Shown one piece after another: positions 11,859 to 43,926 of a stretch of DNA of 64,000 nt. The notes under the pieces are model-generated. The model ran no database searches. It had not been told where the DNA came from and saw only the letters and a list, made by a program, of their open reading frames with translations. Position 1 is the first letter of the stretch. The number at the start of each line of letters is the position of its first letter. The translations under genes were made by a program, and so were the position numbers. The DNA comes from Ascidia mentula (Eukaryota; Chordata; Ascidiacea; Phlebobranchia; Ascidiidae): assembly GCA_947561715.1 (NCBI GenBank), contig OX387201.1, forward strand, positions 20,908,001-20,972,000, in the 5' to 3' direction.

Positions 11859-11936
11859 CAGAAGCAACGTAACCATTTAAGTTAACACAAGGTTTATAAC
11901 TTCTATTACAATAACTTCTATTCTCTTCAGTTGTCG

Positions 11937-14900: not shown

Positions 14901-17900
14901 CTAAACACATACGTCCACCAAGCTTCAAACCAGTCCAAAGGTGTTCATAAATCCGTTTATTGTCGATAATCCAGTAAAGTAATACAGCACACAGCACAGA
15001 AGTTTATTTGACTTTGTTTATGATTTCAGTTATATATATGGCTTTATGGCCTAAATGTCGTGGTTTATGACACAAGTTTAATGTCGCTGCCTCTGCAGGC
15101 TAGCATTTTTTCACATGCTACTGACGCCGCTTTGTTGGACATCACAACATGGGCATTCGTTGAACGCGTGATTACAATGACTTTGGTTTTAACTCCCGGC
15201 TTGGTTTTAACATAAATTAGCTGTAAGTTTTAGGGCCTTTTTTCTTTGTAAACATGTGTTGTGCAGCGACACTACTGATGCAACCTGAGTCAATAGATAA
15301 GTTTCGTGTAAGAGGTGATTTCCATTAACTTAACTTACTTTGCACGTTAATGATGTCATCGTCGTTAGAGTTGTTGACCTATTTTCAAAGCGATAATATT
15401 TGACTTCACTCACAACTTAAGGCGTCACTCATGTTATGAAAAGTTAAAATGATAAGCAGCGTAACATGTGAGTGCACGTATGATAAGTTGCGATTTTCTT
15501 GATATTTTCTCTGAATTACTTTCGAAGAAAACTAAAATCAACCCAAGTTTTGTAAACGAACTTAGCAATTAGGCATATTAATCTTGAATAAGACAAAGCA
15601 TGTCATGAACCTTTCAAAAACATATAACGATTTTCATTATCGACCAACTGATCAGAGCATAATCTTCATTATTAATTATTCCAACAAAAATATACTTTAC
15701 ATGTTTTTTCGAAGAAATCCCAAAGCAACGTAAGCATCATGTACCAAGTTCGCAATTACAAATTTACCACTCAAGTTGTGAGACGGAGATCTTACAATCC
15801 ACACTTGGAAATATCGTGCTTTATTTCGGAAATATTAAACAGAGATATCAAAACTGCTTCTAGAGCAATGTCAACTAAACTGTACGCATTGTAATTTAAT
15901 TACTTTTTTAATTTGGTGACATTTATGCTTTTGTTGAAACTTAACAGGAAAGAAAGTTATCTGACTTCACATCGTAGTGTCGGGAATATTACGATCAGAT
16001 TTGAGTTGTTTAGTGACGAGCAAATGAAAAATCCACTCAGATCAAATTCAATCGTCCAAGTTCCAAACTTCGTTTACGCTAAGGTTGATTCGGCCAGTGG
16101 AAGTGGAAAGTTTCACACATCTCTAAGGGTATGTTTGTTCAATAATAATTTGAAATAAATATGTATCAGTGCATTATTAAGGCTCTGCTGGTCATAAGTT
16201 AAGTCTTAGAAGTGTGGCCTGAAATACACATATATACGTTCACACACGGTAAAAATTTTATGCTAAATAAATAAATTCATTGATGAATTCCTCGAAGTCA
16301 AGTTTGTGAATAAATTAAAAAAAAACTTTGTTGACCATTCTACTCCTTTATTACTAAACTTACGTCATAAGTTATGTAGGTGGACTGGATTATTGGCTGG
16401 ACCTAAATGCGCTCGTTGTTGTTGGCTGACAAAGCGTTGTTTATTTATGTATGGTTTCTATTAGATATATTAGGAATTTTTTTCATATGATTTGTGCAAG
16501 GATTCCATGTTTAGCCACTGTTTTAATGAAACTCTGTTTGTCAGTTAAAATCGTGCTGGGTCAGCAACATGGATTCTGATGAAGGAGGTTTGATACATGA
16601 ACTCATCACAGAAAGGTAAAATGTCGACGAAAAAAACCTTCCAAATACATTCCTGTCAATTATGTTCAAGTGAAAGTGAATTAAGAATGCCAGAAAACAT
16701 AAGCACGAAACTTCACATATTTCCAACCTTACCCACTATTTCTCATTTAAATTCAGTGTTTTTTCTACTTCTATTTCATGCCACAATATTAACACAGGTC
16801 TATAGAAATTTGTTTTATTCTTGCTCAAAATGTTTGATGGCATCTTATTAGAGATTTGTTCGTGTTAAAATATAAAAAGTTTACAGATAAAATCATATTA
16901 TCGCAGTTGCAAAGTCGTCCACGAGATGGAGTCTGAAGATTCAATCGTAATTTTGAGAAACTACCAAAGCACTTTCGGATCCTTTAAGTTTCGCTCATTC
17001 GTGTGGAACAACGTGCCTGTGAACGAACAATCACTGTACGCTCACTGTTACGTGCAATTATGCGACAACACTTCTGATGGTTGTCAACAACCGGTGAGGT
17101 TTTGTATAGACAGTAAAATTGACTCTTTCTTCCTTGGCAGAATTACGTACATAGTAACATATTAGCTGTCCTACACAAGAACAAAACTGATTTTACGAAA
17201 AAATACTCACACAATTTTCAATCGAATAATCTTGATAAGCTTCTGGATTTATTTACAAATTTTCAGAGTTTTATTATGAAAACGCAAAACATTTATTCAT
17301 GTGTGTTTCACAGGATTGCTCACAAAGACGTGAACGGCGATCAGTGGATGCGGATATAGAAGAGATTTTAACGGTTGGACCATTCTACGTTTCAGCTCAG
17401 GATTTGTGTGGAAAGGTGAGTAGATGCATTTAAGCTCTCGGTATATAGCATAGAGCCGTACTTAGTTGTACATCACGTTATATACTAAACGAAAAACAGA
17501 TTAACTAATCTTCAAAAACACGTAAGCAGCTAAGTTAGTGAAAGGTCCAGTGTGTATTGGTGCGTTCGTATATTTAGTTTTACACATAAACTACTAACAG
17601 GGTTATCGATCCACAGTCTACCGGGGCAGTCATCAGTAATTCAGTTTGTTAATTTTTTTGTGCTATTTTTTTGGTTGTACAAATACTCCAGTCTGTTGTC
17701 TAGTCTGTATCATAAATATCTTTTATTGTAGGAAAATGGTGGATGCACAGATTTCTGCAACGAAGAACTTGGAGTTGTCCAATGTTCTTGTTTTAAAGGC
17801 CGCTATCTCGGGAATGACGAAAAAACTTGCATTGGTGAGAACTTATATCTTTCGCTATTTGAATATCGTCTGATCCGATTTTAAGCTGCAATTTTTGAGG

Positions 17901-18271
17901 AACAAAATTACCTTTCCAAGTCAAAGAACAACAAAAGAGAGTTCCACATCTTATCTTCAAAAATAATTGAAGTTGTCTGACTTAAAAATTCTAAAACGTT
18001 TGCTGATGAAAATTCTATAAATCATGACAACCAATCAGCAAATAAACAATACTGGTATTTCTTTTTCCATACCATGTAACTATATGTCCCAATAACTCTA
18101 TCTTACCTTAATATATGTGTGTGTGCAGAGGTGGAAAAAGCATTGGAATCAGAAGGTGTCCAGGATATGAAAGGTGTTTACATAGCAGTTGGATTCATCG
18201 TCGTTCTGCTTATTATTGTGCTTGGGTTGGTTGCTTGGTTTATGAGACGTCGTTTCAACAAGGATGTTTAA
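11937..18271 (+). CDS. ZP-domain, EGF-like, single-pass membrane protein, copy A
   Basis: Proposed exons: 11937-12018, 12093-12259, 12652-12826, 12987-13180, 13292-13430, 14401-14566, 15948-16128, 16545-16615, 16907-17093, 17314-17415, 17732-17834, 18129-18271, all with GT/AG borders. The start gives a short hydrophobic signal peptide (MEIIFLLCLFRHVAG after a few residues; an in-frame ATG at 11958 is an alternative). Cysteine-rich N-terminal exons follow, the 12987-13430 pair being CUB-like at best. Exons from 14401 to 17415 form a ZP module, including LKSCWV and LYAHCYVQLC. RRERRS at about 17332-17349 is a furin-type site. One EGF-like module (GGC...C...CSC...C, 17732-17834), a hydrophobic helix and a short RRRFNKDV tail end the protein. 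ZP proteins are secreted or membrane-tethered and polymerise into egg coats or other matrices; such a role here is inference. Phases do not match at 13430/14401 and 14566/15948, so one or two small exons are missing from my model. Confidence 0.82.
14690..15078 (-). repeat. LTR-like or other interspersed repeat in a ZP intron
   Basis: A GC-rich end (TGTCGCCCCCCTTAGAGC) opens a block unlike the AT-rich intron around it. On the minus strand it runs from TGTGTC through a TATA-like run and AATAAA to GGCGACA, the order expected of an LTR. No coding parts adjoin it and no target duplication is clear. If it is an LTR it is an isolated fossil. The copy at 61644-62032 is nearly the same. Confidence 0.3.
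15079..15274. mobile_element. MITE with 12-bp inverted ends, in a ZP intron
   Basis: The ends are TAATGTCGCTGC and GCAGCGACACTA, inverted with one mismatch, 196 bp apart. Inside are GGCTAGCATTTTTTCACATG and GAACGCGTGATTACAATGA. A related copy lies in the opposite orientation at 18792-18963. Short length, inverted ends with TA at the tips and no coding capacity fit a non-autonomous DNA transposon, possibly of the TA-target type; the family is not recognised. Confidence 0.65.
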
Positions 18272-18791
18272 TGTGATAACTGAAGACATAAGTGTACCCT
18301 GCGTGTAACTAACTGACTGATTTAATTAACAGCTTAACGTATATTTGTATAATCCCGTGTATAACGCACACTTTTGTATCTTGCTGCAAAAATACAACCT
18401 GACATATATCTGTGTGTGTAGAATTGTTGCTTTATAAGAGATTAGTTTCAAAGTGCTGCGTTGTCTCCAAGCACAATCCAACCACTCAACTTAAAAAAAA
18501 ATAACGCTAACACCGCTTGTGAAATCACGTGATGTTATCGAAATACAATATGCCTGACAGCAACAGAAACATAAAATAGTATTTGAACATACGCATAGCA
18601 ATGTCTATTCATTGCACCAAGAAGTATCAAGATTCACTTTTAACATGAGATTATCGCTATTATGGGAAACGCCGTTTGGCAGAAGGTTATTTAACGAAAG
18701 GGAGTTTACTTATCTAAGTAAGGGTCACTTGTTTGCGGAAGAATTTGCTTCATACCATATGGCGCTGATGTACAGCGACATGGTCTATGTC
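18272..18791. other. 3' flank of ZP gene copy A
   Basis: Probable 3' UTR and intergenic DNA. Past about 18488 it lacks an approximately 310-bp insert that the second period carries at 37397-37703. A 60-codon open frame at 18612 matches no known family and I do not call it. Confidence 0.4.
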
Positions 18792-18963
18792 TAGTGTCGC
18801 CGCACAACATATGTGCATACAAAAATCCCAAACTTACAGCTTTGTTGTGCCTGAGAGTTAAAACCAAATCATTATAATCACGCGTTCAATGAATGCCCAA
18901 GTTGTGATGTCAAACGAAACGACATGGGTGAAAAAGTGCTAGCCAGTAGATGCAACGACATTA
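18792..18963. mobile_element. MITE, inverted relative of the ZP-intron copy
   Basis: The ends are TAGTGTCGCCGC and GCAACGACATTA. Read on the minus strand it matches 15079-15274 along its length (TTTGACATCACAACTTGGGC, GAACGCGTGATTATAATGA, GCTGTAAGTTTG). Similarity continues for about 15 bp beyond the ends, so the true borders may be wider. The second period repeats it at 38001-38172. Confidence 0.65.
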
Positions 18964-19208
18964 TAGCTGTGTTATAAACCATGTTATGTAGGCAATCAAG
19001 CGATATAGTTAACTTAGGCAACCAAACTAACTACGTAAATAGTTATATTAAACATAGGTACTTCTTGCAAATAATAAATAACGTTAATTTAAACACAAAT
19101 ACTTGTTTCGCAAATGATAAATAAAGCTAAAATAAACATAACTACTTTTAGTTAATCGGAAAACAAAGACTTGGATTTCAACATAAACAACATATTTGGG
19201 GCACTTAC

Positions 19209-19490
19209 GTAATCTAGCAATATAAATAACTGACGTAATCGACCAAATCGGTAAGCAAGTTCAAGTTGCGCAATAAGGTGTATTTGGTAGTCATCCACCC
19301 CTTTAAAAATCACAGGGTCAGCGTTCACGTCGTCAATATTTAACTGTAGTTCATGCGGATCTAAATATAATAAAAGTAGAAATGATTGTGAAATAACTTC
19401 AGGAAAGACAAAGAAACAAACAACCAAAATATGTTACGGAGAATTCTTACCATCAACGAGCATTACCAGTTCATCTGTGGTGCAGTTGTC
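19209..19490 (-). CDS. Two unrecognised candidate coding exons
   Basis: The upstream exon ends at 19451 with CTTAC (donor GTAAG) and reads ...SDNCTTDELVMLVD. The second (19360-19209) opens after an ATTTAG acceptor, joins in phase and reads DPHELQLNIDD...FGRLRQLFILLDY before a GTAAGT donor. Good splice sites and about 65 open codons favour real exons, but I do not recognise the family. They lie downstream of the ANKAR-like gene on the same strand and could be its extra 3' exons or a separate partial gene. The second-period copy is at 38418-38700, with substitutions such as NADPV to NAGLV. Confidence 0.4.
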
Positions 19491-19669
19491 TGACGTTGGT
19501 TTATTTTGTATTTGGAAAATCAAACCAAACATACGTTAATGTTGGTTTGTATTCTGTTGGCTTGTTTCGAGAGATGCTTGATAACCGTCGCCAGACATTG
19601 ATCCAGCAAAGCACGTTCTCTGAGCAGTGATGCGTGACTGAAAAAATATTTGTAACGGTTTTAAGGTAC

Positions 19670-20900
19670 AACATACTATTTGAATCAACAAATCAAGCAC
19701 TCAGCCTAAGGTGAGGTTCTTGAGCAAACATCTACGTTATCATGTCCTCAATAACAAACAACCTTGGTTGGAATTTGTATGTGTTGATGTCTTTGAAAAG
19801 GTCGGACTACGAACAACGCTGTGTAAATATCTCAATCCGCTACTGCGTCAAACAGCAAAGTTATCTGCGTATTCGATAATTTACCCAACAATATATTGTC
19901 AATCTCTCCGCCGTCGACTCACTCGCTTTGTCCGCAGTAAGATTGTGACGCAACAAATATCAGCTGTCCAGCCAAGCGGAACCAGTAATTCCTCTCTCAG
20001 CAGCGAAACAAAATGCGGAACTTAATTCACAATCGTTGCCTGGGGCAGCATTTGTGAGGAAACTATTACTTTGTGAAAGCGGATTCCTTTATTCGTTTTT
20101 AAGTGTAGCAGCAAGATCTTAAACAAACTAATTCCCAAGAAAATTGTAAACAAAATTCGTCTCTTGCACGCTTCAGTGATTTTCCAACACGAACAGCGAT
20201 TTTATCCTCGCAACCAGAACATTAACTTTTCCAATGCTGATTGCTGACTTGCAACATAGAATACTGTTTTAGTATTCTATGCTTGCAATAATTACCTAAT
20301 TTTTTTTGTATACACAAAATAGACAGATTGAATCAAGTTGATATACATTTTGCATGAAAGAGCAATATTATATATTACAAATATTCGGTTGGAAGCCAAC
20401 AATTTATTGAAGTAAAGCTACTCGATTTCTACAAAAATTTAAGGTAAATATGCATATGTCTAACTTTGTCAAACAATCTTTACTAAGTGCACACGATGCA
20501 ATTATGAGTAAAAAAATGTTACATCAGTGGAAGAATCTGGGATGTTCACAGTTTTATAAATCTCACAAAACGTGTCACTTCAAAAGAAAATGCAAGAACA
20601 TAAAAAAACAGCATCGTATCTTTCACATAATACAGGAAGCATACAAATTTTCACAGTGAAATATTTACAAACTACACGAACTTGTCGCGCAACTGCATAC
20701 AATGTTTTGAACCTGACAAGAAAAGAAAAACAGGAAACTGTTGTTCTAAAATAAGTAAAACTTGGGAACAGAAAAGTTTTATTTGTTTGTAGAAACTTTT
20801 CTGTTGGCCGGGGAAATCGAACGTGCTCTCATCGTCCGGTGAGCAGCTCTGAAAAATCCATATTTCAGTGTTCCTGTATTTTAACGCACACTACGAGGCA
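19670..20900. other. Stretch without a recognised gene
   Basis: Contains a 104-codon open frame on the plus strand (19711-20025, GTG start, no family match) and a strong hairpin at 20249-20288. Otherwise AT-rich with no recognised gene. Confidence 0.4.
20249..20288. repeat. Hairpin with 17-bp stem
   Basis: The arm TTGCAACATAGAATACT (20249-20265) pairs with AGTATTCTATGCTTGCAA (20271-20288) around a 5-nt GTTTT loop, with one unpaired base. It could be a MITE remnant or a small structured RNA. The second copy is at 39458-39497, unchanged. Confidence 0.8.
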
Positions 20901-20908
20901 TTTCCTAC

Positions 20909-23900
20909 CCGTTGACATGTAAGGTGTTTCCCCTCGTTTGCGATGTGTGAGGTCTTGGCGGCCCTGAATAAAGAAAGCTTGATATTTTTATGATTGAAAC
21001 AAACCCCAGAACTTTTGCTGCATGAAAGCTTGTGTCTAAGCTCAGTAGAAATGTACGTTAACACAAATTGTAACGAACTTACTCCTCTTTTCTTTAACAA
21101 TCGGCAAACCGATGGTCGCCTGTCGTTTAAACTCGGCTACAAACTCATCAGACACTTTTCCATCTTCACCCAAATTATCCGTAAGAGTGACGTAAAGGCC
21201 TTCAGTCGCTCTACATGACGTCATCAACTCTCTGCTCGCCGTTCGGTTGAAAGATAAATATCCTAAAAATGTCATCATAAAGTTTAAACCACGTGGAAAT
21301 AGATAAATGTCAATGTAATACATAAGGTAATAGGGAAACCAAGTGCATGTTTTCCTAAACAATCTCACGTTATTTTGTCACCCGACAACTCCATAGAAAT
21401 TATATATAGACAGCTAACCTAATGCCTGGGCAGCAGTTTGTCGAACCAACTGATTCTCCGACTTCACTTTACCAAGAAGTTTCTCCACAGCGCCGCAAGT
21501 GACGATGGCTTCAGGAACGCCCGCCCTCGTGTGGGCGAGTGACGCAAGATAATCCGCTGTAATACGTCATCATTACGTCATCTTTCTTTCATGTGAAACT
21601 ACAAATCACCCAAAAAGTCGAATATATATGCTTGCACCGAAATAAATCCTCAAGCGTTGTGATGGCTCAAACCACCGAAGCGTGAAATCCGTTGTTGTTG
21701 TTGGATTCGGTTGAATGCGAACATGGTTAGTGCGGATACTGCTTGTAATTTCACCGCCTTAGAAAGAACAAAACAATTGTAAGTAAAAATTACGTCCAAT
21801 TCTTTCACACATAAACTTGCACACGCAATTAACTTTATCGCCAATTATTTATACGTAAATTTCAATAGAAAGTAAATACCCTGGCTTAAAGCAAGCTTCG
21901 CAGATTCAACAGGAGTTGTGGGAAACAAGTAGTAGAGGTGGGGATTACCCACCCGGTACTATATATTGAGCATTCTTTATTACATCACAAAGGTTTTACA
22001 ACAAACCCACCATACTGGGCGAGTTGCAGACTTGCAGAATAATTTCGAATCCGAATCCGTCCAATTCGTTCCGTTTGTCTTCGTTCTCCTGACAACCGCT
22101 AACAAGACACGATAAACAATGGAGAAGATCGACCTTTAGAACAAACATCTTTTGTTTAATCGCGACTCTATGTCGTAATTTCTGGCATCGCGTCACCTGC
22201 ATCTTCTCGTCACGTGACGTTTTCCACACTCTGTTGACCAGCAGCTCAATGGCGCCCACTTCGGCAATTGTAAGTTGAGAGTTCTTGTTGTTTATGTGGG
22301 CTACACCTGGACCGATGTGAAAATAAAGTGAAATAATAATTAACAAATTTATCAAAAACAAACTTCAGGAAATCTGAACGAAATCAATATTTTCTAATAG
22401 TGAAAAAAAACCAACACCAGACGATCAAACTCCCTCTAATGCTTTAGGAAACAAAAAAGCGTTCACGCGCAGCCATTGTCGTCATTATAATACCTGAAAT
22501 GCACGTTCCTTCACCTCATCCGATCAAATCTGTTACGAAAATGACAGTTGATGAAAATCTTTACATTGGGTTGATTAATGTTTTTTTGCAAAATGGAAAG
22601 GAAAAATCAAAAAATGCCGTAAAAGAGTTCCACTAAAAGTCACAAGGTTTCAATAAGAAATTTCTTTAAACTCGACAAACTTGATTTTTGTAACTTCATT
22701 TTCTACTTACTTGAAACAGACGACACAGAGCGGTCGGAGCTTCTTCTAACAACGCCTCGTGTTGGGCTCTCTGGTTCCCTCTAGTGATGCATCCAACAGC
22801 AAGCGCAGCTTTCATCTGAGCGGGAATGCAATGACCTCGCAGTATCGCCACCAGCGGCGCTAACACTCCGATTTGAACAAACTCGTTCTGTGTAAAATTT
22901 TCAGTAAATCTTTTGCAAAAACAACACTGGCCAAACAAAATGATTACTGCAAGCAATATAAACAACGACTCCTCTTCTTGACTGAAAATATTCAATTCTT
23001 CAACAGGTGCAAAATCCCACAAGTGTGGATTAATATTTAGGTCACAATTCACAACAAGCTTCATTCCCACACCCGTTATACCTGGTTGTCCTGGTTGTCA
23101 TTGCAAACAGCGGCAATCGCGTCAGCAGTCGCCGTCTGAAGCGAATCGTCCTTCACCGTGAGAAAATCAACCAGGAATCCGGAAGCTCCACACTCCATAA
23201 TTCTCCGCTGGATGTCGCCCGCACCACTCGTGTCTCCCCGACAGAGTGAAGCCAGGGTGTTGATGACGTTGACAATCCACAACCTGGAACAGTACAAGCT
23301 GGAAAGTTACAATTTCCTCAAATCCCATGGGAAGTATACGACGGACGTGAGGCATCGATTTTAAACCAACTGCAATAAATTTAATCCAGAATTCCCCTCC
23401 TGTTATTTTTGACTCACGTCAACTTGGAGGAGTTCAACTAACGGCCGGATACCACCATGTGCGGCGATGCGTGACGCGTTGTCATCCACGTGAGCGACAT
23501 CCGAGAGAACAACAGAGGAACGCGATTGAATCTCGCATGTCCCATCCGTAGATTCCAGATCCTGGTTCTCCGGATCAAGATCGTGGGAGGCCATGGGTTT
23601 TAACAGAGAAATAAGAGCTGCGAAAAATAGTCCCCGATTGAAAAGAAACAAGTCTGACCAATCGACGGCATATTCAATATATTTTACACTTAACTTAATC
23701 AAATGCTGTACGATAAGCAGACAATGCACAAATTACATAATTTTTACGCAAAGTTACTGCAGACATGAACAGAAAACGTGATACATGAAATAGCACCGAT
23801 AAAACCATGAGGGTTTCCGAGTCAGACACACAATTTCTCTTACGTTTTTACGTGGTTTTCAAAAAAATACTGAACAGATATTTAAATACGATTTCTATCC

Positions 23901-24665
23901 TGACAAAAGTGAAATATTGACCACGTGACTTAACACCTACTTGGAATCGCTCCAGCGTTCGCAATCTCAACTTTGACGTCATCCTGTTCCGACATGAGGC
24001 AAATAACAGAACAAGCGAGTGATCTTATGGGTGAAGTCGTCTCGTCTTCAAAATCCTTCCCTAAACCTTCAACACAAATGTTCACTGAGTCCTCGACCAT
24101 CAAGTTCGATGGTTTGGGATTTCTGGAGTTACAACTTGGACGCCAACCCCAAACACACACTCAGTGCATCCGCGTAAAGATTTAACGAAGCTTATTGCGG
24201 GAATAAAAACGTTGCAGCGACATTTAGCGGCAAACAACACAGGTCTTTTAGTGAGTGCCAGTCAGGTTTAGTGGGTGTTTCGACCATTAGGTCTCATCCG
24301 TGCAGCTTTTTTCAGTGACTTGTTGTGGGGTTACAATAATATTAGGGAATTATAAATAAATCAATAAATGGTCACATTTGTCACATACAGAGTTTCTGAT
24401 TAATTAAATATTACGCAATCAATGACGTCACTCACCAACTAATGCTGGCCACACGTTTCAACTTTCCTCGTCATCACCATCCTTCCTCCCCTCCAAACTA
24501 ATCAAATATTTGATGACGTCAGTGTGGTAACTGAGGGCTGCTCTTTGCACGGGACCGTCATTGTTGATGTCACGCGATCGCACGGTGGCGCCAGACTTGA
24601 TGAGAAATTTGAGACAATCGAGCGCTCCACTTGAGGCAGCAACGAGCAGTGGTGTAGCGTTGTCC
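20909..24665 (-). CDS. ANKAR: ANKAR-like gene (ankyrin and armadillo repeats), 5'-truncated, copy A
   Basis: Exons in transcription order: 24665-24436 (one ankyrin repeat block, NATPLLVAASSGALDCLKFL), about 24110-23941, 23617-23418 (joins as NAGAIPTLISLLK), 23282-23082, 22887-22711 (IGVLAPLVAILRG, PAQMKAALAV), 22310-22005 (GVAHINNKNSQ), about 21750-21680 (SALTMFAFNR), 21556-21419 (ASLAHTRAGVPEAIVTCGAV), 21262-21083 (joins as ALGYLSFN) and probably 20963-20909 (basic, Pro-rich). Order and motifs match the C-terminal half of vertebrate ANKAR as I remember it. Most of the N-terminal half is absent, armadillo blocks expected between 22711 and 22310 and between 21680 and 21556 are not visible, and the ankyrin exon runs into TGA at 24458-24460 before its apparent donor. 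The 23418/23282 junction does not keep phase. Likely a truncated, decaying copy; molecular role unknown. Confidence 0.8.
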
Positions 24666-24717
24666 CTGTTTCAACAACATTGGTGAAGGCGCTCGACGTT
24701 AAATTAAGCACAAAAAT

Positions 24718-24775
24718 CCTGATCGGGATTCATGGCAAGGAGAGTGCGGGTTCGAACCCCGGTCAGGTAAAAAAT
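24718..24775 (+). repeat. tRNA-derived SINE fragment
   Basis: Contains a perfect pol III B-box core (GGTTCGAACCC). CCTGATCGGG and CCCGGTCAGG flank it as an inverted repeat with one mismatch. It is too short for a tRNA and has no usable anticodon arm. It shares GATCGGGATTC and GCGGGTTCGAA with the element near 29075-29165, so both are probably one tRNA-derived SINE family. The second copy is at 43927-43984. Confidence 0.5.
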
Positions 24776-25159
24776 TAGCAGCTGTTTTTCATTAAATTCC
24801 CATTTTCGTGACTTTTAATGTTGGTTTCATTGATGACGAAATTAGCTTCGGATACCCGGTTAGTTTAAATAACGTTGCAAGGCACAAGTGCAATACACAG
24901 GGATGAGTCTAACACGAATATCGTACGTGGAATGAGCTCCACTCAGATTGTAACAACATCGCTAGGAATCACACACCTGTTTATATATTAATGTCGCTGT
25001 TTCTTTTGAGACCAATTAGAATTGATGACGCAACTCTGGCAATATATGATAAATGTGCGGCAAGTTGAAAGTAAAAATAAACTAGGTTGATATATACTGG
25101 TTAGTACAGTAATTATGGATGTGTGTTAGATCTGCGGACACATGCACGCACTGTTTCAA

Positions 25160-25335
25160 TCTATAAAGGTCTCATCAGTGCAGCTGGTGACTGTGACACT
25201 GGTTGGGGCAGCTTGGATACTGACAAGGACACAGATTTTAACTTCATGGTGTCTGTGGTGTAAGTGTGCATGGTAGTCTACAAGCTAGCCCAGTGCCACA
25301 GTCACACCAAACTGCACTAATGAGACCTTATAGGA
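25160..25335. mobile_element. Foldback element or MITE
   Basis: The arms begin CTATAAAGGTCTCATCAGTG on the left and end CACTAATGAGACCTTATAGG on the right. They pair imperfectly over about 45 bp (CTGTGACACTGG against CCAGTGCCACAG). No coding content. A weaker relative of one arm lies near 24288 (AGGTCTCATCCGTGCAGC). The second copy is at 44369-44544. Confidence 0.65.
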
Positions 25336-25619
25336 TGAAATATTGTGTGCAAGTGTCTGCAGTTCTCATGGATTATTATGGTTCTTTACTGCTTGTAAGG
25401 AAGAAACACATTTTGTGCTTGTTTTGTATTTGGACCGATTCTGTTTAAAGTCAGAACACTGCACTTCATTATAGATTTAAAGTATAAGCGGGTATAGTGC
25501 CTTTTTACAACATGTTACCATGATAACATGTTTACAACATGACAGCATTAAATATCCAGATTCAGTCGAAAATTGGCTGCAGGTATTTTTATATAAGTTA
25601 CTACACCCCTAAAACTTAC

Positions 25620-26262
25620 TTGTACATAACCATTATCGAAGCTAGCAGCAAAAATAAAATATTCATGAGGATTGAACTGAACACTTCTCACGCCATCAGC
25701 TTTGCTTTGAAATGTGTAGGTACTTTCCCTTCTCCTCAAATCGAACAGCTTCATCGTTCCGTCCTTTAAAAAACAAATGATACAATATGGCTTCTAAGCT
25801 TGTGATTTGAATAAACACATAAAATATATTTTTATAAACTTTACACTCTGCTTTGACTTGTATGCAGCCAAAAGCAAAATACCACTTGTGATGCATATAT
25901 TTTCTTGCAGAAAAATGTACATGCTCTGCTCCTGTAAGAAGTGTTACAAGTTACATTGAGCACGAAAATAAACTTCAACGAACAAGATTTGCTGATTGCG
26001 AAAAAGGCTTGTGTCACATAAAAATGCAAATTTAAACAAACTTGTCTAACGGTCTTGACAGGTCCCATCTACATAAGAAACTCATTTTTATTTAAAAACC
26101 ATACATATATATAACACCTGTGATCCACTTAGCAAAAGAGTTCCATCAGAGTTGTGAAACTTTGGTGACCATGCGACGATGTTCAGACAATATAGCGAGC
26201 TTCTTCTCACGACCAGGAGTGTTTAAATCCCAAGCTACAACTGCTCCATTAGTTTTCATCAG
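25620..26262 (-). pseudogene. WDR24: WDR24 fragment (two exons), copy A
   Basis: The first exon (26262-26118) reads TNGAVVAWDL, then LSEHRRMVTKV, then (after a frame change near 26155) HNSDGTLLLSGSQ up to a GTGTTA donor. The second (25763-25620) joins in phase as DGTMKLFDLRRRESTYTFQS and ends SFDNGYVQ before GTAAGT. Order and wording match two WD40 blades of WDR24, a GATOR2 subunit that regulates mTORC1 at the lysosome. In the first exon the reading frame shifts by two bases (TCA CAA CTC TGA in the original frame). The rest of the gene (further blades, C-terminal RING) is not nearby. It is therefore a gene fragment, probably a pseudogene; a sequencing error in the first exon is possible, but both copies show it. 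Confidence 0.78.
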
Positions 26263-26678
26263 CTAATTATGTGTTAGGACTAACATGTCGATGACCAGGA
26301 ATGTTGATCATGTCAAATATTAGGTTCAGTGAATTATTTCAACTATATGATTTTATTGGGTGATGACTAGCAACATGTTACAATATAAACTTATTGATGT
26401 TTGTTGTTTAAACAAACAGTTGCCTGAATACTCAGGTTATAGGGTGAGAAATTCTTACCACAGACAAATCAAAGTTTGGGTCAACTTCTGACATTGTAAA
26501 TGCAAGTTGAATTATAACCACAATTACTTTAATCATTATCACAGCTTTGTTTTGACCCCAAACTTATTGTACCTCATTTTTGCCTTCATTTTAACACATA
26601 CCGCAGGTTCAAGTATTTTCCCATGGATCATCATGAGATCACAAACAAAAAAACAGAAATTTGTCTTGTTAGACTTAC

Positions 26679-27772
26679 CAGACGCAGTGTTTCCACAAAT
26701 TATTTGAGCAGTTGGTTGGGATTTGAGAACTGCAACTAAATCATTGAATGAAGTTGGTCGGATCCATGAAGTTCCACCATTAAATAATTCAAGCCTGGTT
26801 GCTTTTTGTTGCAGTATTTGTTGGTCACAGAAAAGGAATCAGGAAGTTTGTACAACTTAATGCATGTTGTACCTCAATGTCTGAAAATTTTTTCAGCAGT
26901 TTTGGGTCAGCATCTGTTGCAAAATATTTCATTGCATCAAGTAAGGGACGATATCCTGTACAAAATGGAAACATTTGTCGTTGTATAATAAGCACAGTTG
27001 AAAGGCCAGAAAAACATACTCTGAATAACCCACCACAAATTTTCTCTGTATTCTAATTTATAAGCGAACCTGTACATATTCATGACGAAGCCAGGAGTGC
27101 AATAACCACACTGTAAACCATCGAACTCAGCTACACGAGTTTGTATTGTATTGTAGCCATCTCTTCTTGACCCAAGTCCTTCCACAGTTGTTACTCTGCA
27201 CCCGTCCACTGAAGCAAGCAGGCTGAGGCACTAAATACATTTGTCAATACATAAATTTTTTTTAAATATGCATTTTTATGTCAAACACAGTAAAATTAGT
27301 TCATGAACAGGAAGCATCTGCATATCAGTTATGATTAAACAACAAACCGAGACATAAAGTTTAACTTTCAACAATCACCGAGTTTACAGCTTCTATCTTT
27401 CCAGGAGTTTTCTCCATGGCAACCACGCAACATCCACATCCTCCCTCATAACACATCACTTTTGTACCAGTGAGTCCTGGTTGTGATCAGAGCCATGAGT
27501 TCAGGCTCATCATTGTATCCACATCATCAACTGAAGTAAACAAATAGGTTTACAACAACTAATAATTTCTATTTCTATCTTTAACAAGGACGTCCACATT
27601 TTTGTGTTATCTGTTGCCAACAACTAAAATTAACTAAATAAAAATGCATTAAAAAGCTAAAAAAAAGAAACGCAGAAGTTTTTTTGCAAATAAGCTTCAA
27701 CAAACCTGTATACAGTTGTCCATTTACATGGAATGATATTGAGGTACTTGTCATTGTACCAAGTATAACCAC
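26679..27772 (-). pseudogene. Xanthine dehydrogenase/aldehyde oxidase N-terminal fragment, copy A
   Basis: Four exons match the N-terminus of this molybdo-flavoenzyme family: ISFHVNGQLYT (ending 27706), 27530-27379 (LTGTKVMCYEGGCGCCVVAM, the first 2Fe-2S loop), 27230-27070 (VTTVEGLGSRRDGYN, QCGYCTPGFVMNMY) and 26955-26679 (GYRPLLDAMK, then WIRPTSFNDLVAVLKSQP, CGNTAS before GTAAGT). Family members oxidise purines or aldehydes using 2Fe-2S, FAD and molybdenum cofactor. Signs of decay: the expected Arg in NSWLRSQPGL is a TGA (consistent with CGA to TGA), the CRC pair of the second cluster before GYRP is not visible, and the last exon changes frame between its two conserved parts. FAD and molybdopterin domains are absent. 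Confidence 0.78.
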
Positions 27773-29070
27773 CTAAAGTGGATGCATAGAAAGTTTTGTC
27801 CCACGTATTTAAGAATTAGCTACAAAATTTTGTTGACAAAAAATGCACCATCGGTTTTGTATTAAAATTAATAACCTTTTACAACGGGGTTGAGAGATAA
27901 AATATATAAAAAAATTCACAAATGGTTGACAAACCACAGCAAATCAATACATGGATCCCAGAGTGGAAAGTTTGTTTTTTGCTCAGAGGATTTTGTTTCG
28001 GCGATCGTTAATTTCGCAGACGTTTTTTTCATATGTTAATGCATTAGCTCATTAATATTTTGCGGATTATCGGTAAATTTTCACAAAATTATTTGACATT
28101 TTTTCCTAAAACATGATAATGATAAATCTTGATAATATAAATTTAAAATTAACGTGAAAACAAAACTTTTGTAAATCAGAAGAAATACACAAAAGCTTTC
28201 ACAGCATTGGAATTAAACCTCGCTGGTGAACTCTCTGCGACGCTTAGCTTAAAAGTCATCATTCATTTGTTTTTCTGAGTTTCCATTTTTTCCTAAAAAC
28301 GTGACTTTGCACTGGACCGATAGGGGATTTCCCAATTCGCAAAAATAGTGACGTCAGCTATTTTTAATGATAAGAAATGGTTGGTCTTGAGGGGCCTTTT
28401 AACTGACGCCATAAAAAATTATGGATTTTTTGTAATGCCATAATTTTATCTGTTTCTTTCCATAACAATACATTTTCCAAACAGAAATAGAAACAAAATT
28501 TGTGTCCGAAGAGAACCTCCCCTTACGCGAAACCCTGTGTAGGTTTCAAGTTACGCATCAACTTCTATGTAACGGTTACGACCCACTGAAACTAAACACA
28601 CCCTGTCTCCTCGCAACCAGCATTCAGTTGCTAAGTGTGTAGTAGTTTGCTGATTCACTGAAGGTTTGCAAGGGTTAATATTTGTCACTAAGTTTGTTCT
28701 AGCTGACTTTGCGAGCAATCAGTTAAGAAACCGTGAAACTCTGGCTTATTGTGAAGTGGACAGGGGTCTACTTTCATATTGAACTGAGGAAACGTTATGT
28801 GGAAACGGTTTGAGTTATAGTAGAAGTTAAAAAGAAACATTGGATTTTATGATTATGATGATACATGCGATCAATCAACTCACCAACGTTGGAATTTAAG
28901 GATGTAATTTAATGGTTCTCAAACTGTTCGTCGCGTCACCTCGGTGCGTTGTTTCGAATATCCAAGGGCGTCGGGTAACTTAAAACCCGGCCTTTTACAA
29001 TAATCAGTGCGTCACACGTACTGTGAATATCTGCATATGCGTCGCACTGCAATATGTTCATTTACTTATT
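27773..29070. other. Stretch without a recognised gene
   Basis: AT-rich. A palindromic piece at about 28419-28448 (CCATAAAAAATTATGG and TAATGCCATAATT) may be the end of a DNA transposon. No coding exon is convincing on either strand. Confidence 0.4.
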
Positions 29071-29073
29071 TGT

Positions 29074-29165
29074 TGCCACACCGGGATTCGAACCCGCGAG
29101 ATCCTGTGGACGAATCCCGATCGCTCTTTTGTTTGTTTGACTCGGGTGCTTTAACCGATGTAGAA
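29074..29165 (-). repeat. tRNA-derived SINE fragment
   Basis: On the minus strand, GGTTCGAATCCCGGTGTGGC contains a B box and lies about 50 bp after a weak A-box-like GGTTAAAGCACCCGAGT. The tRNA fold is not complete. It shares its core with the element at 24718-24775. The second copy is at 48283-48374. Confidence 0.5.
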
Positions 29166-29688
29166 GTTTTATGTCATTCGATGTGCTCTCCAGCGACACC
29201 TATCGCATCAGCCACATATATACAAAGTAATTTCCTTCAATGACGTAACAGCGGTCGGTTTCGCTTTGCAATCAATTGTTTTGATCGCGTAGCGTTAAAA
29301 TGAGTTGAAAGCGAGAAGTTGGTAAATGATATGTGACGTCAAGTAGCAAATGTGGAGACTCATAGTTTTATGTACGGTTGTGAATGCGTACAAAGCTGTT
29401 GTATTTGAACAAGAATTTGTATGTCAAATTTTATTTGTTACTCACGGAAAAGAAGATAACATTTATGATTTAATCGATAGCAAACAAAACAAGATCTTGG
29501 TTTATTTACTTGCGATAAAGTGCACAGCAGTAGTTTAGCGTTGATTAAATTATTCCGGCAATTACTAAGTTATTTATTCCAACATTTAATTTAGTTGATT
29601 AGCTAATTAAAAAGCATTGATTTGTTTATCAAATGTAGTATCACCCCATATTGTGCATTGTTGGAATGTGGCTGCACCGTATATGCAG

Positions 29689-30045
29689 AGAAACTTATAC
29701 GCAGCAAAATGATGTAATATATAATATGCCCTGACGTGGCGTGATAACTTATCATATACCGTTATCATGTTTATACTTACTGGCACGTTTATGTAGGCAT
29801 AACTTTAAACTGAAACTTTTAATGTTTTGTGGTAGGTCATTCCACACTGTAACGCAAGAATATTGCAATGTCCGTTGGGCGCGTTTGGTCCGGACACGGG
29901 GTAAGAAGAGGTTATTTGCTGTGCAATGTCTTGTGCCGTGGCCATGTACCTCAATTGCAAGAGCAAAGTAATTGTCAAATACTTCCGGTAGGCGTTCATT
30001 TTTGAAAAGGTAAACAAATTTTGCAAGAAAAAGTAAACATTTTAC
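29689..30045 (-). mobile_element. 5'-truncated LINE, RT C-terminal end
   Basis: On the minus strand a frame of about 90 codons runs from FVYLFKNERLPEVFDNYF through VHGHGTRHCTANNLFLPRVR to VWNDLPQNIKSFSLKLCLHK and stops at about 29752-29754. The WNDLPQNIK...L...K pattern is the signature of the C-terminus of the LINE open reading frame in CR1/Jockey-like non-LTR retrotransposons. The frame is open here but only this tail remains. About 65 bp of 3' UTR follow. A second truncated copy of the same 3' end adjoins it. Confidence 0.8.
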
Positions 30046-30175
30046 AGAAACTTATACGCAGCAAAATGATGTAACCCATAGTATATCCTGGCGTTGAAAT
30101 GGTGATAACTTATCATATACCGTTATCATGTTAATACATAGGCTACTGGCACGTTTATGTAGGCATAACTTTTTT
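30046..30175 (-). mobile_element. Second 5'-truncated LINE tail, same family
   Basis: Begins AGAAACTTATACGCAGCAAA, as does 29689, and repeats that element's 3' end (ATAACTTATCATATACCGTT, GGCACGTTTATGTAGGCATA) over about 120 bp with differences. The two tails lie head to tail on the same strand, as when one truncated copy inserts next to another or by local duplication. Confidence 0.75.
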
Positions 30176-30193
30176 GCTTCAACGTACTGAACA

Positions 30194-31116
30194 ATGTTTG
30201 GCGATCTTGATGATGACGTAGATCAAGTATGGAATGAGTGGATCGCAAAATACAGTACGTTTATTCCTGGTTTCCACCAAATTGCTTTAATAGGTTTCAT
30301 TCTTAATTTACATCGATTTAACATTTACAGTTATGTTGCAGTTATTTCGATGGTTTGCAGATAAACAATATTTAAACGAGGACGAACTTCGTGAAAGAAA
30401 AAGTATTTGGGAAAGAAGTTTAGCTGAAGTGAAAGAAGACAATGAAGATTTCAAGACTGGAAAGTTCACATACAGGATTTCACTGACACAGTTCAGCGAT
30501 CGGGTAAAAAACAACACATGTCCAAATCAACGCAGTAATGTTTCATACAATGGTGGCTGACACAGCTAGACTGCAATACCTGGGCTGCGAAACCTGTTAA
30601 CCTAATGATTTCCAACTAAGTTTTGAGTAAACGTTTGTTTAAATACATTTCAACACAGAAAAACGATGAACTCCCATGGATGAACGATCGGAATGTGGCA
30701 GAATGTTACAGACCACCCTTGTTATTCGGAGCATCGAATCTGGGTGAAGAATGTCAAGAAACTGACCCAGATGTTGACATTGAGGAACTTAACCCTAAAA
30801 GTATTGACTGGAGGGTCAAGGGTTGTGTAACACCCGTGCAAGACCAAGGAACTGAGTTACCCGCTTGCTGGATATTCAGTGCAGTAAGCGTTCGTTACAA
30901 ATGCCTAACTAGTATAGCTACTGTGATTTGAATATGCAGGTAGCAGCCGTTGAATCCCATCACAAGATAAACAACGGAGAATTGGTCAAACTTTCTGAAC
31001 ACCAATTAGTTGATTGTGACGAAAAGGGTGGAGGAACAGGAGATCTGGAATGGGCGTTTGATTACATTCGAAGGAATGGACTCGTTTTTTAACATGAATA
31101 TCCGTTCATTGGCAAG
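30194..31116 (+). pseudogene. Cathepsin-like (papain family C1) protease fragment, copy A
   Basis: Exons: 30194-30254 (MFGDLDDDVDQVWNEWIAKY), 30361-30503 (joins in phase as NKQYLNEDELRERK and ends LTQFSDR), 30659-30883 and 30940 onward. The first two form an I29 propeptide, which inhibits the protease until it is cleaved. The third starts the mature enzyme (SIDWRVKGCVTPVQDQG). The usual CGSCWAFSA becomes ELPACWIFSA, so the nucleophile Cys seems present but its partner Cys and the GS are not. Exon 4 reads LSEHQLVDC and AFDYIRRNGLVF, then a TAA (31090-31092) directly before HEYPFIGK. No signal peptide precedes the first ATG, and the half with the catalytic His and Asn is missing. Truncated, probably dead copy. 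Confidence 0.8.
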
Positions 31117-31697
31117 GTTGATTTAACGAAAATCCATTTTTAATGTTAAACAACAATTGGATCTTTAGTGTGCTTTTTACCTCATAACATACTTCCCATA
31201 GACGTCCATTACTAAAGTACCTTGTAGATTGCCAGAGTTATAACGTAACCACCACTAAAGTACTGGTTTCTGCAAATGAGAGTTTAATTGGATCCTCCGG
31301 GTACTAGCTAGTTTCGAGAAACCAAACATAAAAATCAGCAAACATTTCCGCTCGCGCAACGCTTTTTAGATAGAACAATAATAATCTAAATTTACGACAA
31401 GGTCTTCAGCATTTATATTCGACAACTTAACATAATACATCATGATTTGGCGAAAATATGTGTACGACAATTAGTGCTGTTACATTGGACATTTTTCCTT
31501 GTTGCTATAGTCTTTAAACTTCTTACAAATAATTTAAAATTACTCAAATTTCCAATATTTGCTCAGTTGGGGAGTTGGTGAAAATGATTCAGGTTTCAAG
31601 ACCGAGACAACAATTGTTTTGTTTCTGGACAAGCAATTTATCCTGTTCGCGTGGGTTGCTACTCACCATCAGAGGAAAGCCAGACCACAGTTAAATA
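31117..31697. other. Stretch without a recognised gene
   Basis: AT-rich tail of the fragment block up to the LTR-like block. No further cathepsin exon with the catalytic His is visible here. Confidence 0.4.
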
Positions 31698-31699
31698 AT

Positions 31700-32305
31700 G
31701 TCAATGAATTCAGAAGACTAAAAACGTAGCGGACTCTTATATAAAATAGTTATTTTGACTAAAATAGTAAAATAGTTGTGTCCGATTAGTCCGACCACAC
31801 TTTGTGAAATGCTTGTTACGTAACTACGTAACCTAGCAACCAAAATAACAAAAACCTTGGTTACACACAAAAAAATAAATAATAGATATAGTTTCCCTTG
31901 GCATATTGTTTACACGTAATATTGTTGTCATTTAATTTTCTGGTCATTGTTTGTTGGTCGTTTCCATGGCGCCAGTTTTCCTGTGTAAAGTTTAACCCGG
32001 TTTTCCAGTATCTGAATGTCTTCTGTTAAATGCTTGCTGTGAACAATACTTTTTTCAGAACCCCTACACCGTCACGCCTCTCTCTAGTATATAAAGTGTG
32101 CTTTTATCAGTCTCAGCCTTTACTACTTAACCTAATAGTCTCCGCTTTGTGTGTTAACTCTGTATGCTTACATACCGATAGTGTATTTGTTAATGCGTGT
32201 GTCTAATTCTTTGACTAACTTTGTATCAATGTAGTTTTAATGAAGTAATAAAGATGTATTTAGTGTAATTCTCTGTGTTACATCTTGTTTGCCAGTAATT
32301 GCCGA
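31700..32305 (+). repeat. LTR-like block (possible solo LTR fossil), copy 2
   Basis: Same order as copy 1: TATATAAA at 32088-32095 and AATAAA about 155 bp further on. It again stands immediately before a 3.4-kb array, so block and array were amplified together. Confidence 0.4.
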
Positions 32306-32606
32306 TTTCTATGAATGCGCATTTTTCTTTGCACTAATGTGTGTTGCAATATCATACGGTCTGTGACGCAATAATAAGAGACCAAGTTTTAAGTGACAAC
32401 GCAACGTGGTTTTGTCCTTTTTGTGTCCGACAACTGTGCAGCACAGTGCTACGTCATTTTCATTCTTGCAAAAGGTTTTTGTGTTGCGAGCGGACATTTT
32501 CTGGTGAGTCTATTTGTACATATGTGTGAAACTACTCAAGAATCAAGTAACCGAGATGTGTAAATTGTAATTTTGGCTAATTTAACTGCGATGACTTAGA
32601 AGTCAC

Positions 32607-35512
32607 AGTATAGTGAACAGTATAGCTGCCCTTGTTAATGTGATTAAGTTTACGCACGGTGTTGACGCTGTCTTTGTACTCACAGTGTCTCTCTTGCATT
32701 TGTACACACGTGAAGCGTGCGGTATTCAATCTTCTGTCGCCCAAAGTTATCGGTAAGCATTGTGTGTGTTACGTCATAGAGGCGCATTGTAGTTTATGTT
32801 GCCTGTTTCGTTTAGGTGTGCGACAGTAACTGCTTGGACCGTCTTTGTGGTCCAGAGTTTCCCGGTTCCCAAATAGTTGGTGAGCGTTATGCTGTAATTA
32901 TCTACGTGAAATGTATTTGTTTGACACATTGCCTTCTGTGTAGAAACCGTGTTCTAAGGGTCCACGTGTCCTATACGTGTCTTTCGTCTCCTCCCGACGT
33001 CTGTACCGTCCATACTTCGAATACATTCCATCTTGCGTACGAGTGCGTACTGCACATTCGATAACAAACATAACATCAACTGAGTGAGCGAGTTTGAGGC
33101 CCATTAAAACTGCGGGAATTCCGCCTCGTGTGACGTCCCGCGCCAAGAACCGGGGCGCGTTCAACGGACGTTACACTCTGCATCAGGTTTTCAATTAAAG
33201 TCATGCTAGGGAAGAACATAAGAACTCACGTGCGACTTTATGTCAAATGTACTGAACAAATAGGATTTCACAATTAAATGTTACTCAAGTTATATTAGAT
33301 TAATGTATCGCAAAAATGGGAAACAAATTATAAAAAATAGTAACGATTGAAGAGTGCAATTCATCATAACGTAATTAAATAATTGGGTAAACTCAGTTTG
33401 ATCAAATGTACATAAAAAAAATATCAACAGAACAAAAGGTCATGTTTAATATTCACATCGCAGTAATAAATGCTTAACTGATCGGAACCGGGGGCACCCT
33501 GGGGTTGTGGATTATTGATTTAAGCGTGTGAGAAGTCACAAGGTTTGTGTTAAAAAACTTCAAATTTCAACATTCTGCCCCAGGCTTGCACAACCCCAGG
33601 GTGAACATTTTCGAGGTGCGAGTCAGACAAAATGACGTAAGAATCTGCATTTTGTCTCGCGCCTCGAAATTTTTTTGCTGCATTCGGGCAACTTTGAAAC
33701 GTAAATTCCAATGCGAACCGTTTGTGGCCTTGTAATTATCATGCTTTTTGTCTTTAGTTAAAATTGAAGAAAGATAATTGTTCATGCCTCAGCGGTTTGG
33801 TCTTTCGACAATATCTACGAAGGAATATCAACCGTGAAGTTGTCATAAAATACCTTTGGTTATTCAGCCACAATTTACACTTCCGTCAGGATTTTTATAT
33901 TATTTGTGGTACAATCTATCCGCGGTGGAGTTAGCTTGGACGTGAGCCACAAGCAAAACGTTGCGCGTCATCTTCTCCATTGTAGTGAATGCAGATATCA
34001 TAGAAAATTTAATACAAGAGTTACAACTCTGTGATGTTTGATCCCGAAATAAAAGTGAGAACATGCATACGATGAACAAATTCTCCTTAGTTTGTGATCA
34101 ACGTTGTAATTATCTATATATAGCGTCCTGAAACCCGGTAGAAATAAACATTGCTGGGCTTGCACGCACGTTCAATCTCCTTGCCGTGTTTACTGCAAAC
34201 TGCTGGTAATTAACATTACTTGCACGCACGTTCAATCTCCTTACCGTGTTTACTGCAAACTGCTAGTAATTAACATTACTTGCACGCACGTTCAATCTCC
34301 TTACCGTGTTTACTGCAAACTTGTGATTGCAGTATTATAATGACGTTATGCAGTACCTGGTACAAGGCTTATCTCAGGTTGTTTGGTGGGAGACGAGATT
34401 AGAAGATGAAGTAAGCGCTTGGCGCTGCGTGTCGCGTAGTAGCGTTTGCCGCAAAAACTTGAAATTCACAATTGCAAACGCGTTCTTGAAAAAACCTATT
34501 GATAAAATTCGGGATGGTTGAACCCAGAATAATAGTTGAATGTGTCTGATATTCTGAATGTAAACGAAGAATAGGAAACATTGCAAACGAATGTCGTTTT
34601 GCGAAAACATTTCAACCACATGTCTGTAAAAAATGTGTAACTTTAATAATGACAAATTTATTGCAAAAATAACCTTGATACAAAGAATTCTGTTTAATCT
34701 TACCCTCCTGGTATTAAATGCTTAACTCAAGGTATTGACCTGAATGTGGAGTTGTTCTGTCATTAAAATTACCTGTTTGTGTTACTTTTGTTGGTTGTGC
34801 TGCAAGCGACGATTTAGAATAAAATTGCTCTTGCAAGTAAAACGTTTGCGCATCACCTCTGTTGCGATGTCTGCTCATATCATAGAAAGCATGAAACATT
34901 AAATATTCTGTGCATGGATGCGCGTTGAAATCACCTCATGTTTATTCACATATTCATGATGTCATGCAGTTCCTGGTACAAGATTAGTGCTTGGCGGTGC
35001 GTGTCCCGACTGCTGAAAGTAGCAACAACTTCACCTCATGTGGTTGGGAAGTTACCTGCTGCGTGTTTAGTGGTAATGCAGTTTTTCTATAAAGCCGGGA
35101 GTCTTGCAGCTGTTTGTCCGCATTCAGTTGCCTGGGACAGGAAGGTGTCGAGGGACAGGTAAAGAAAAGTGTTAAGAAATAATACGAGATCTAACTAACT
35201 TGGATGCAAATTACTTGGGTCGTATTACAAGAAATTGTCGATTAACATTGGTAGCTCACCTTGGCATCAGTTTCCTAACATTTAACATTTATCTATGAAG
35301 TTAGTCGTAACTGCTTGAGGTAACAACGTTGCTTATCCTCGACAACACGAAGTGTGTACGTCTAAAGTACAACAGGTTATCTTACATTAGAGATAATACA
35401 AGCCAGAGAATATGTGAAAAATGAATGCAGGAACCGACCTGTGCAGGTCGCGGTGACCGGTGGATCTGTCTTTACAAATCAATATATTATATTCCTGTGA
35501 CAATGAGTGAAG
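32607..35512. repeat. 3.4-kb unit, cut by the assembly gap
   Basis: One unit of the same family, with the three-fold 60-bp repeat at about 34159-34321. It stops at the N run at the base that corresponds to 54721 in the third array. How many further units existed cannot be seen. Confidence 0.9.
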
Positions 35513-35712
35513 NNNNNNNNNNNNNNNNNNNNNNNNNNNNNNNNNNNNNNNNNNNNNNNNNNNNNNNNNNNNNNNNNNNNNNNNNNNNNNNNNNNNNNNN
35601 NNNNNNNNNNNNNNNNNNNNNNNNNNNNNNNNNNNNNNNNNNNNNNNNNNNNNNNNNNNNNNNNNNNNNNNNNNNNNNNNNNNNNNNNNNNNNNNNNNNN
35701 NNNNNNNNNNNN
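35513..35712. other. Assembly gap, 200 N
   Basis: Exactly 200 N. The left side is inside a 3.4-kb unit and the right side is inside the intron between ZP exons 11 and 12, so comparison with the other periods implies at least 9 kb missing. Confidence 0.97.
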
Positions 35713-35756
35713 AGCATAGAGCCGTACTTAGTTGTACATCACGTTATATACTAAAC

Positions 35757-36284
35757 CAGGGGTGCACAACCTTTTTACTATTGCCGGCCGCAACACACAC
35801 ACTACTGTGTGCTAACGGCCGCCACTGAATATACTGCTTTTTCAACGATATACCCCTGATAATTACGACAAGTTGACGTGAGCAATATAAGAAAGGAATG
35901 GAAATGATTCCATACCTGAAAAATGTGCACTATTTATTATTTACATTTGCCAAATTACGTATGTTACAATGTAATGAAATGTCGAATTATTCAATGACTG
36001 CCTTGTTCTTGTACGCTAGGTTCACGTCTCCATCATAAAATAATTCACTTCCCATTTGGGATTAAACGCCCTTTTCTCTTGTTTTAACAACCTTTTACGT
36101 TTCAGCGACATGACTGAGCGATTCCACTGTTTAGCTTTTCGACAACTGTACATGCGTACATAACAATTCACCGATATACTATTGATGTTTTATGACGTCA
36201 CCATTTTGATACAAATGTGCACGGCCGCAAAAAATAGCGTCCGCGGCCGCATGCGGCCGTACGGCCGCAGGTTGTGCACCGCTG
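35757..36284. mobile_element. hAT-like MITE, 528 bp, with 8-bp target duplication
   Basis: The ends are CAGGGGTGCACAACCT and the inverse of AGGTTGTGCACCGCTG (15 of 16 match). TACTAAAC is duplicated on both sides (35749-35756 and 36285-36292). The first period has the empty site, with one TACTAAAC, near 17487. CAGGGGTG-type ends plus an 8-bp target duplication are hallmarks of hAT elements. Near both ends are GGCCGC-rich runs. No transposase frame is present, so it is non-autonomous. Confidence 0.93.
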
Positions 36285-43874: not shown

Positions 43875-43926
43875 CTGTTTCAACAACATTGGTGAAGGCG
43901 CTCGACGTTAAATTAAGCACAAAAAT

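Follow-up and report, generated by a model that had tools for sequence, protein, structure and literature searches.

A block of half-genes in Ascidia mentula that is very probably the junction of an old tandem segmental duplication

Introduction

How do incomplete pieces of several genes come to lie side by side, on both strands, within 12 kb of a chordate chromosome? The question is raised by a 64,000-nucleotide stretch of the ascidian Ascidia mentula (C69:20908001-20972000, hereafter the window). Here, one block (19670 to 31697 of the window) contains the 3′ half of a gene that we take to be ANKAR, a scrap of WDR24, the 5′ half of an XDH/aldehyde oxidase gene (hereafter XDH) and a fragment of a cathepsin-type protease. 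An earlier reading of the same letters, the original prediction, proposed capture of gene pieces by a rolling-circle or other DNA element, or alternatively serial duplication. We propose that the block is very probably the head-to-tail junction of an old tandem segmental duplication whose breakpoints fell in XDH and ANKAR. This kind of event is known; its mechanism is ordinary and its scale unusual. One duplication whose ends fall within two genes can leave a pile of half-genes that resembles gene capture.

Identity of the gene pieces

Pfam profiles were searched against the open reading frames (ORFs) of the window, with the curated cut-offs as threshold, and sequences of the Protein Data Bank (PDB) were searched for the WD exons. 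Matches above the cut-offs comprise ankyrin repeats (24461-24670, minus strand, E 2.1e-8), Fer2_2 (26940-27230, minus strand, E 5.4e-13), Inhibitor_I29 (30294-30557, plus strand, E 2.2e-7) and two plus-strand Peptidase_C1 exons (30620-30928, E 1.3e-4; 30913-31089, E 3.3e-8). Under the cut-offs lie WD40 (25551-25793, E 1.8e-4), FAD_binding_5 (26542-26838, E 2.2e-4) and Arm repeats (23406-23732, E 0.045; 23079-23306, E 0.017). ANKAR is named by no library, and the name is our assumption from the Arm-plus-ankyrin make-up of the gene. The WD exon of the window matches WDR24 of GATOR2 (E 7e-13, residues 5-59). Among the best 60 of 122 sequences, two designed Tako8 propellers and PkwA rank above WDR24 on shorter stretches, and many WD proteins rank lower. 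Exon 6 of WDR24, found in the surrounding array and without a counterpart in the window, matches WDR24 only (4 of 4 PDB sequences).

Together with alignments to genes elsewhere in the array, these searches bear out the predicted block of fragments on both strands, with ANKAR, WDR24 and XDH on the minus strand and the cathepsin on the plus strand. The long interspersed element (LINE) tails also placed there were not confirmed, as 29755-30051 gives no Pfam family. Introns align at 90-97% between the window pieces and the array genes, and the WDR24 piece aligns through its intron. The pieces are genomic copies, as had been predicted, and retrocopies are rejected because the introns are kept.

Two breakpoints inside genes

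We searched 195.8 Mb of the genome, in 79 contigs. The cytochrome oxidase of contig C79 is open under several mitochondrial codes, and among six codes compared the ascidian one (table 13) alone gives glycine for AGA/AGG at sites where this residue is usual. The ANKAR homology of the window, measured against the copy at C69:21428958-21435026, stops at about 24975, a position that we call q. A search with window 24000-25000 scored 40 of 82 candidates, and its counts are lower bounds: at least 25 of 26 long matches continue beyond base 24975, as do five shorter ANKAR-side matches (four on C69, one on C1). The lone long match that stops at q (query base 976) is the copy at C69:21428958-21435026, which then runs into further exon-like ORFs with ankyrin-type sequence. 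The ankyrin exon just past q (C69:21435556-21435894) is present once genome-wide at 100%, with eight other matches at 32-44%.

On the other side, XDH homology begins at 26599 (query base 300), here called p, when measured against the gene at the left end of the array (C69:19874632-19877837). The XDH side is covered at 31 C69 places. Of these, 29 extend past 26599; the remaining two, at 19874632 and 21741959, do not cross p and are the XDH genes at either end of the array. XDH exons for the MoCo domain are absent from the units; in this region they are confined to the two end genes, at 19865-19866 kb (in the left-end gene, C69:19865-19877 kb) and at 21751-21752 kb. Further XDH/aldehyde-oxidase exons lie on C52 and at C69:15.75 Mb, and neither place matches the seam region between q and p.

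Because the internal units cross both p and q, with the exceptions at the ends, they join an ANKAR half to an XDH half. The other halves would be missing because the duplication breakpoints fell within both genes. Of the parents that the original prediction sought elsewhere, genes with the missing halves were found for XDH and ANKAR at the array ends and for WDR24 inside the array; these three parents do not lie on another chromosome.

An array of some 30 units

The array spans about 1.5 Mb of C69 and holds about 30 units of about 50 kb. At least 26 long matches to the ANKAR side lie along it, the XDH Fer2_2 exon occurs at 32 C69 places (both end genes included), and median spacings are 53, 51 and 55 kb for ANKAR (without the full-length copy), XDH Fer2_2 and WDR24 exon 6, respectively. 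Grouping the markers WDR24, ANKAR and XDH by distance, with the two end XDH genes excluded, gave 33 groups. Nineteen hold all three markers in constant order (mirrored in six), and no group departs from that order. Up to 20.96 Mb, all 26 groups fit WDR24-ANKAR-XDH (13 with three markers, 12 with two, and one with ANKAR alone). Six groups from 21.00 to 21.34 Mb are mirrored (XDH-ANKAR-WDR24), and a last group, at 21.43 Mb, consists of WDR24 followed by ANKAR. The order is thus constant, the breakpoints are shared, and the missing halves lie only at the array ends or, for WDR24, inside the array. The same combination of fragments recurs along C69 and has been amplified as a unit, as anticipated, and serial duplication is the predicted option that the constant order and the breakpoints p and q support. 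A shallow literature search found no paper on this array, which is no proof that it is unpublished.

The features of the window are collected in Table 1.

Table 1. Features of the window, in window coordinates unless a contig is named
Feature	Position	Strand	Basis and remarks
3.4-kb tandem repeat region	872..11702	.	Related stretches 31696-35512 and 50905-58653 form the right-hand limit of the block
ZP-domain gene, 3′ exons, one of them EGF-like, and a putative transmembrane stretch	11241..18496	+	Pfam for the domains, transmembrane stretch by eye; partial second copy 58192-64000
Unit copy 1 holding the block, 19.2 kb	18496..37703	.	Self-comparison
130-bp remnant of WDR24 upstream flank	20105..20231	-	94.7% to C69:21428546-21428675; remaining WDR24 absent here
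3′ half of ANKAR and flank	20282..24975	-	Homology to C69:21428958-21435026 in five pieces; right end is breakpoint q
Junction spacer	24976..25527	.	25128-25366 has inverted matches at other junctions, 67-69% identical when they cover its length
WDR24 exon 3, part of exon 2 and the intron between, inside the junction	25528..26253	-	93.4% to C69:21426996-21427714
Junction spacer left of XDH	26254..26598	.	WDR24 homology of locus L003 reaches further into the matching stretch
5′ half of XDH/aldehyde oxidase and upstream flank	26599..29249	-	Homology to C69:19874632-19877837; Fer2_2, FAD_binding_5; left end is breakpoint p
Cathepsin-type protease fragment: propeptide and start of papain domain	30345..31086	+	I29; Peptidase_C1 profile positions 2-34 and 32-84 of 220
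200-N gap	35513..35712	.	200 N in the window, starting at 35513
Second ANKAR/WDR24/XDH/cathepsin block copy	39491..50295	.	Sequence comparison

The seam and the founding event

The WDR24 scrap is, on sequence comparison, an insert within the seam. It consists of the whole of exon 3 and residues 23-69 of the 69 in exon 2, is cut within that exon, carries one frame shift, and with its intron is 93% identical over 731 columns to the gene at C69:21426996-21427714. Of six junction loci beyond the window, five (L003, L004, L006, L007 and L008) contain WDR24-derived sequence and one, L005, does not, so the insert is probably old. Part of the spacer at 26254-26598 may also derive from WDR24, since the L003 homology reaches further. 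Apart from the seam piece and the 130 bp of upstream flank, WDR24 is gone from the window units.

We suggest that the duplicated segment would have started within XDH (at p) and ended within ANKAR (at q), with the cathepsin, a ZP-domain gene and WDR24 located between them. End-to-start joining would place the 3′ half of ANKAR against the 5′ half of XDH. The units would then have multiplied to about 30, spread over about 1.5 Mb and with six in mirrored orientation, and deletion and exchange among them would have produced the mosaic seen today, in which the window units have lost WDR24. We infer that the insert arose by template switching, perhaps together with the duplication itself, and that unequal exchange drove the amplification.

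Tandem duplications are expected to leave halves joined inside the array and the missing halves at its edges. The locus agrees with segmental duplications whose breakpoints lie in genes, having truncated halves at internal junctions, missing halves at the outer edges and a preserved order. It differs in its some 30 units of about 50 kb across about 1.5 Mb, its mirrored section and its extra seam sequence. In fork stalling and template switching or microhomology-mediated break-induced replication (FoSTeS/MMBIR), template switching inserts sequence at duplication junctions. The seam likewise holds a short part of a neighbouring gene, WDR24 exons 2-3, in the same orientation. The joins were compared for microhomology but are too strongly diverged to judge it.

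Several observations weigh against so simple a history. About 1.6 kb separates q from p (spacer, WDR24 piece, spacer, with about 0.9 kb of non-WDR24 sequence), which makes the seam more than a simple join. At the right end, the XDH match sets in at query base 376, 76 bases further in, and p is therefore seen cleanly at the left end only. Two XDH genes, one per end, carry the missing half, where a single founding event predicts one; an additional duplication or inversion is therefore needed. Four places (20138033, 20453555, 20166295 and 20029190) match only the spacer side of p, and 14 of the 33 groups are short of one or more of the three markers. Further, the gene order is known from this one genome, and the sequence read by place besides the window amounts to about 0.22 Mb, of which 60 kb comes from a copy on C1.

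Exchange between units

The units do not differ evenly from one another. Window 18520-20280 recurs at 99% in at least five further C69 places between 20.26 and 21.29 Mb (40 of 250 candidates scored), one of them being the second copy in the window. The ANKAR matches nearest the other four (20265773, 20319025, 20777129 and 21268368) are 9-10% divergent from the window over 24409-25000 and 2-6% divergent over 24000-24310. This patchwork of identities suggests gene conversion or unequal exchange. With about 30 copies of the same junction, a single chordate chromosome offers a series in which exchange and decay among the units could be dated.

Capture or assembly artefact

Capture of unrelated gene pieces by a Helitron or other DNA transposon, followed by amplification, would account for pieces on both strands, for retained introns and for the many copies, and mixed multi-gene fragments with introns are a feature shared with Helitron-type capture. 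A dispersed repeat near the seam (about 24670-24780), with short 75-84% matches on C2, C67, C70, C71, C72 and C73, could also be read in its favour. However, WDR24, ANKAR and XDH are neighbours in a common source segment with their order preserved and breakpoints inside ANKAR and XDH, and seam matches are confined to one array, except for a C1 stretch of 53.5 kb or more. Helitrons have discrete shared ends (5′ TC, and a 3′ hairpin with CTRR), whereas the flanks of this block continue differently in other units, on the left into the WDR24 gene and on the right into the repeat region. Nor are the limits stated in the original prediction, about 19670 and 31697, shared ends: position 31696 is, by self-comparison, the start of homology to the repeat region that begins at 872, and on the left the unit has lost WDR24. 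None of 30 unit ORFs scanned (22 in the block) matches a helicase or transposase, in a scan that covered neither smaller ORFs nor the remainder of the genome. We regard transposon capture as very improbable and reject it on the strength of the common source segment, the kept order, the lack of shared ends and the confinement to one array.

Nor is a false array, made by haplotigs or repeats placed serially in the assembly, at all likely, although parts of the locus invite the suspicion. Within the window, 18496-35512 repeats at 37704-54721 with 99.86% identity, so that the block is present twice, and the 200-N gap follows directly on the first of these two stretches. The array end (C69:21300996-21354494, L019-L024) also recurs, inverted and over at least 53.5 kb, on C1 (C1:15066501-15120000, L013-L018) at 99.94%. 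Against this, most other units are 4-16% divergent from the window over the XDH side, with differing deletions, and 5-11% divergent over 24409-25000. The genome note of the species gives HiFi reads and a quality value (QV) of 64.9, which also speaks against an artefact (PMC11109543). The 17-kb pair near the gap stems either from a duplication that happened very recently or from a spurious one in the assembly. Breakpoint sequence of the C1 copy also matches C69:21406-21407 and 21412 kb.

Selection on WDR24 and the ZP-domain gene

A duplication with breakpoints in XDH and ANKAR is compatible with a further proposal, that selection for copies of WDR24 (a GATOR2 subunit) or of the ZP-domain gene drove the amplification while the half-genes were passengers. 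We consider this possible but doubtful. WDR24 is an mTORC1 regulator and is single-copy in most animals. In the array, two WDR24 genes have all 11 exon-like ORFs free of stops, at C69:21423259-21428272 (minus strand) and 21339546-21344558 (plus strand), the latter existing also as the C1 copy. The 11 ORFs were defined on C69:21423259-21428272; the comparison with known proteins covered exons 3 and 6, and splice sites were not checked singly. Exon 6 has 26 copies on C69, open over the full length in 15 and carrying stops or split in 11.

Ten of the 15 open copies were compared for silent and amino-acid changes, against a null of equal rates with an assumed transition weight of 4. All changes together number 25 silent to 25 amino-acid (p 0.0014), and those common to at least two copies 16 to 6 (p 2e-5), both of which favour selection. 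Private changes, however, number 9 silent to 19 amino-acid (p 0.68), the neutral expectation, and the copies had been picked for being open. Constraint on WDR24 is apparent in the older changes and not in the recent ones. Pairwise comparison of 12 copies, including the C1 copy and one broken copy, gives 0.23 for summed nonsynonymous over summed synonymous divergence (dN over dS), a ratio that overstates selection because shared changes are counted repeatedly; pairs involving the broken copy give 0.34-0.49. Should WDR24 be expressed from many copies, this would be surprising and is directly testable. The exons of ANKAR and XDH give ratios of 0 to 1.6 with few changes each, which neither show nor exclude constraint.

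Outside the array and its C1 copy, the sole match to WDR24 exon 6 is at C1:9589191 (65%). This candidate parent was rejected as a short, decayed scrap (62-65%; L048, C1:9587501-9590500). An ORF beside it is, by eye alone, a candidate reverse transcriptase. A ZP exon (78%) about 3 kb beyond the scrap hints at an older dispersed copy of the unit.

The ZP-domain gene is the other candidate target. Its ZP-C domain lies at 16869-17162 (E 1.7e-6, Pfam), a related stretch at 36534-36758 matches FXa_inhibition, which is EGF-like (E 3.5e-8, Pfam), and a putative transmembrane stretch at 18080-18268 was judged by eye. The ZP-C exon has 23 copies on C69 between 19.89 and 21.30 Mb, and related ZP-exon clusters occur at C71:16.19-16.75, C73:13.61-13.81, C72:18.25-18.59 and C67:8.94-9.00 Mb; these numbers can be taken to favour selection. 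Upstream of the ZP exons, an exon-like ORF at 12983-13210, without a Pfam family, shows 12.5 amino-acid to 1.5 silent changes. This count rests on a single comparison, which weakens it as an argument for selection, and we treat it as a lead only. The gene invites comparison with the ZP proteins of ascidian egg coats, but it is known here from its sequence and may have nothing to do with eggs.

In its strongest form, the proposal would make the array an adaptive amplicon in a chordate: selection would maintain tens of copies either of a ZP-domain gene for a surface or egg-coat protein or of functional WDR24 genes, while the half-genes made at the seam would travel as passengers and exchange would partly homogenise the units. 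This is rather unlikely in our judgement. What caused the array to grow to its present size we can only infer.

Other features of the window and array

The 3.4-kb tandem repeats (window 1771-11235) each contain a 60-bp minisatellite and, by eye, bear no coding sign. Their copy number varies between units, with about three, one and two within the window. A separate minisatellite with 20/30-bp units lies at 251-814. An exon-like ORF of 93 amino acids at 19155-19433 (minus strand) has no Pfam family, and its only matches are weak ones to occludin (E 0.2-0.8); it is perhaps another trapped gene piece, and the stretch around it occurs in a subset of units. Outside the window, C69:21371896-21385964 (L026-L027) holds long blocks of short tandem repeats, and its left part has overlapping ORFs with a repeated 'FRYWNRIFVTGTEFSLLEQN'-like peptide.

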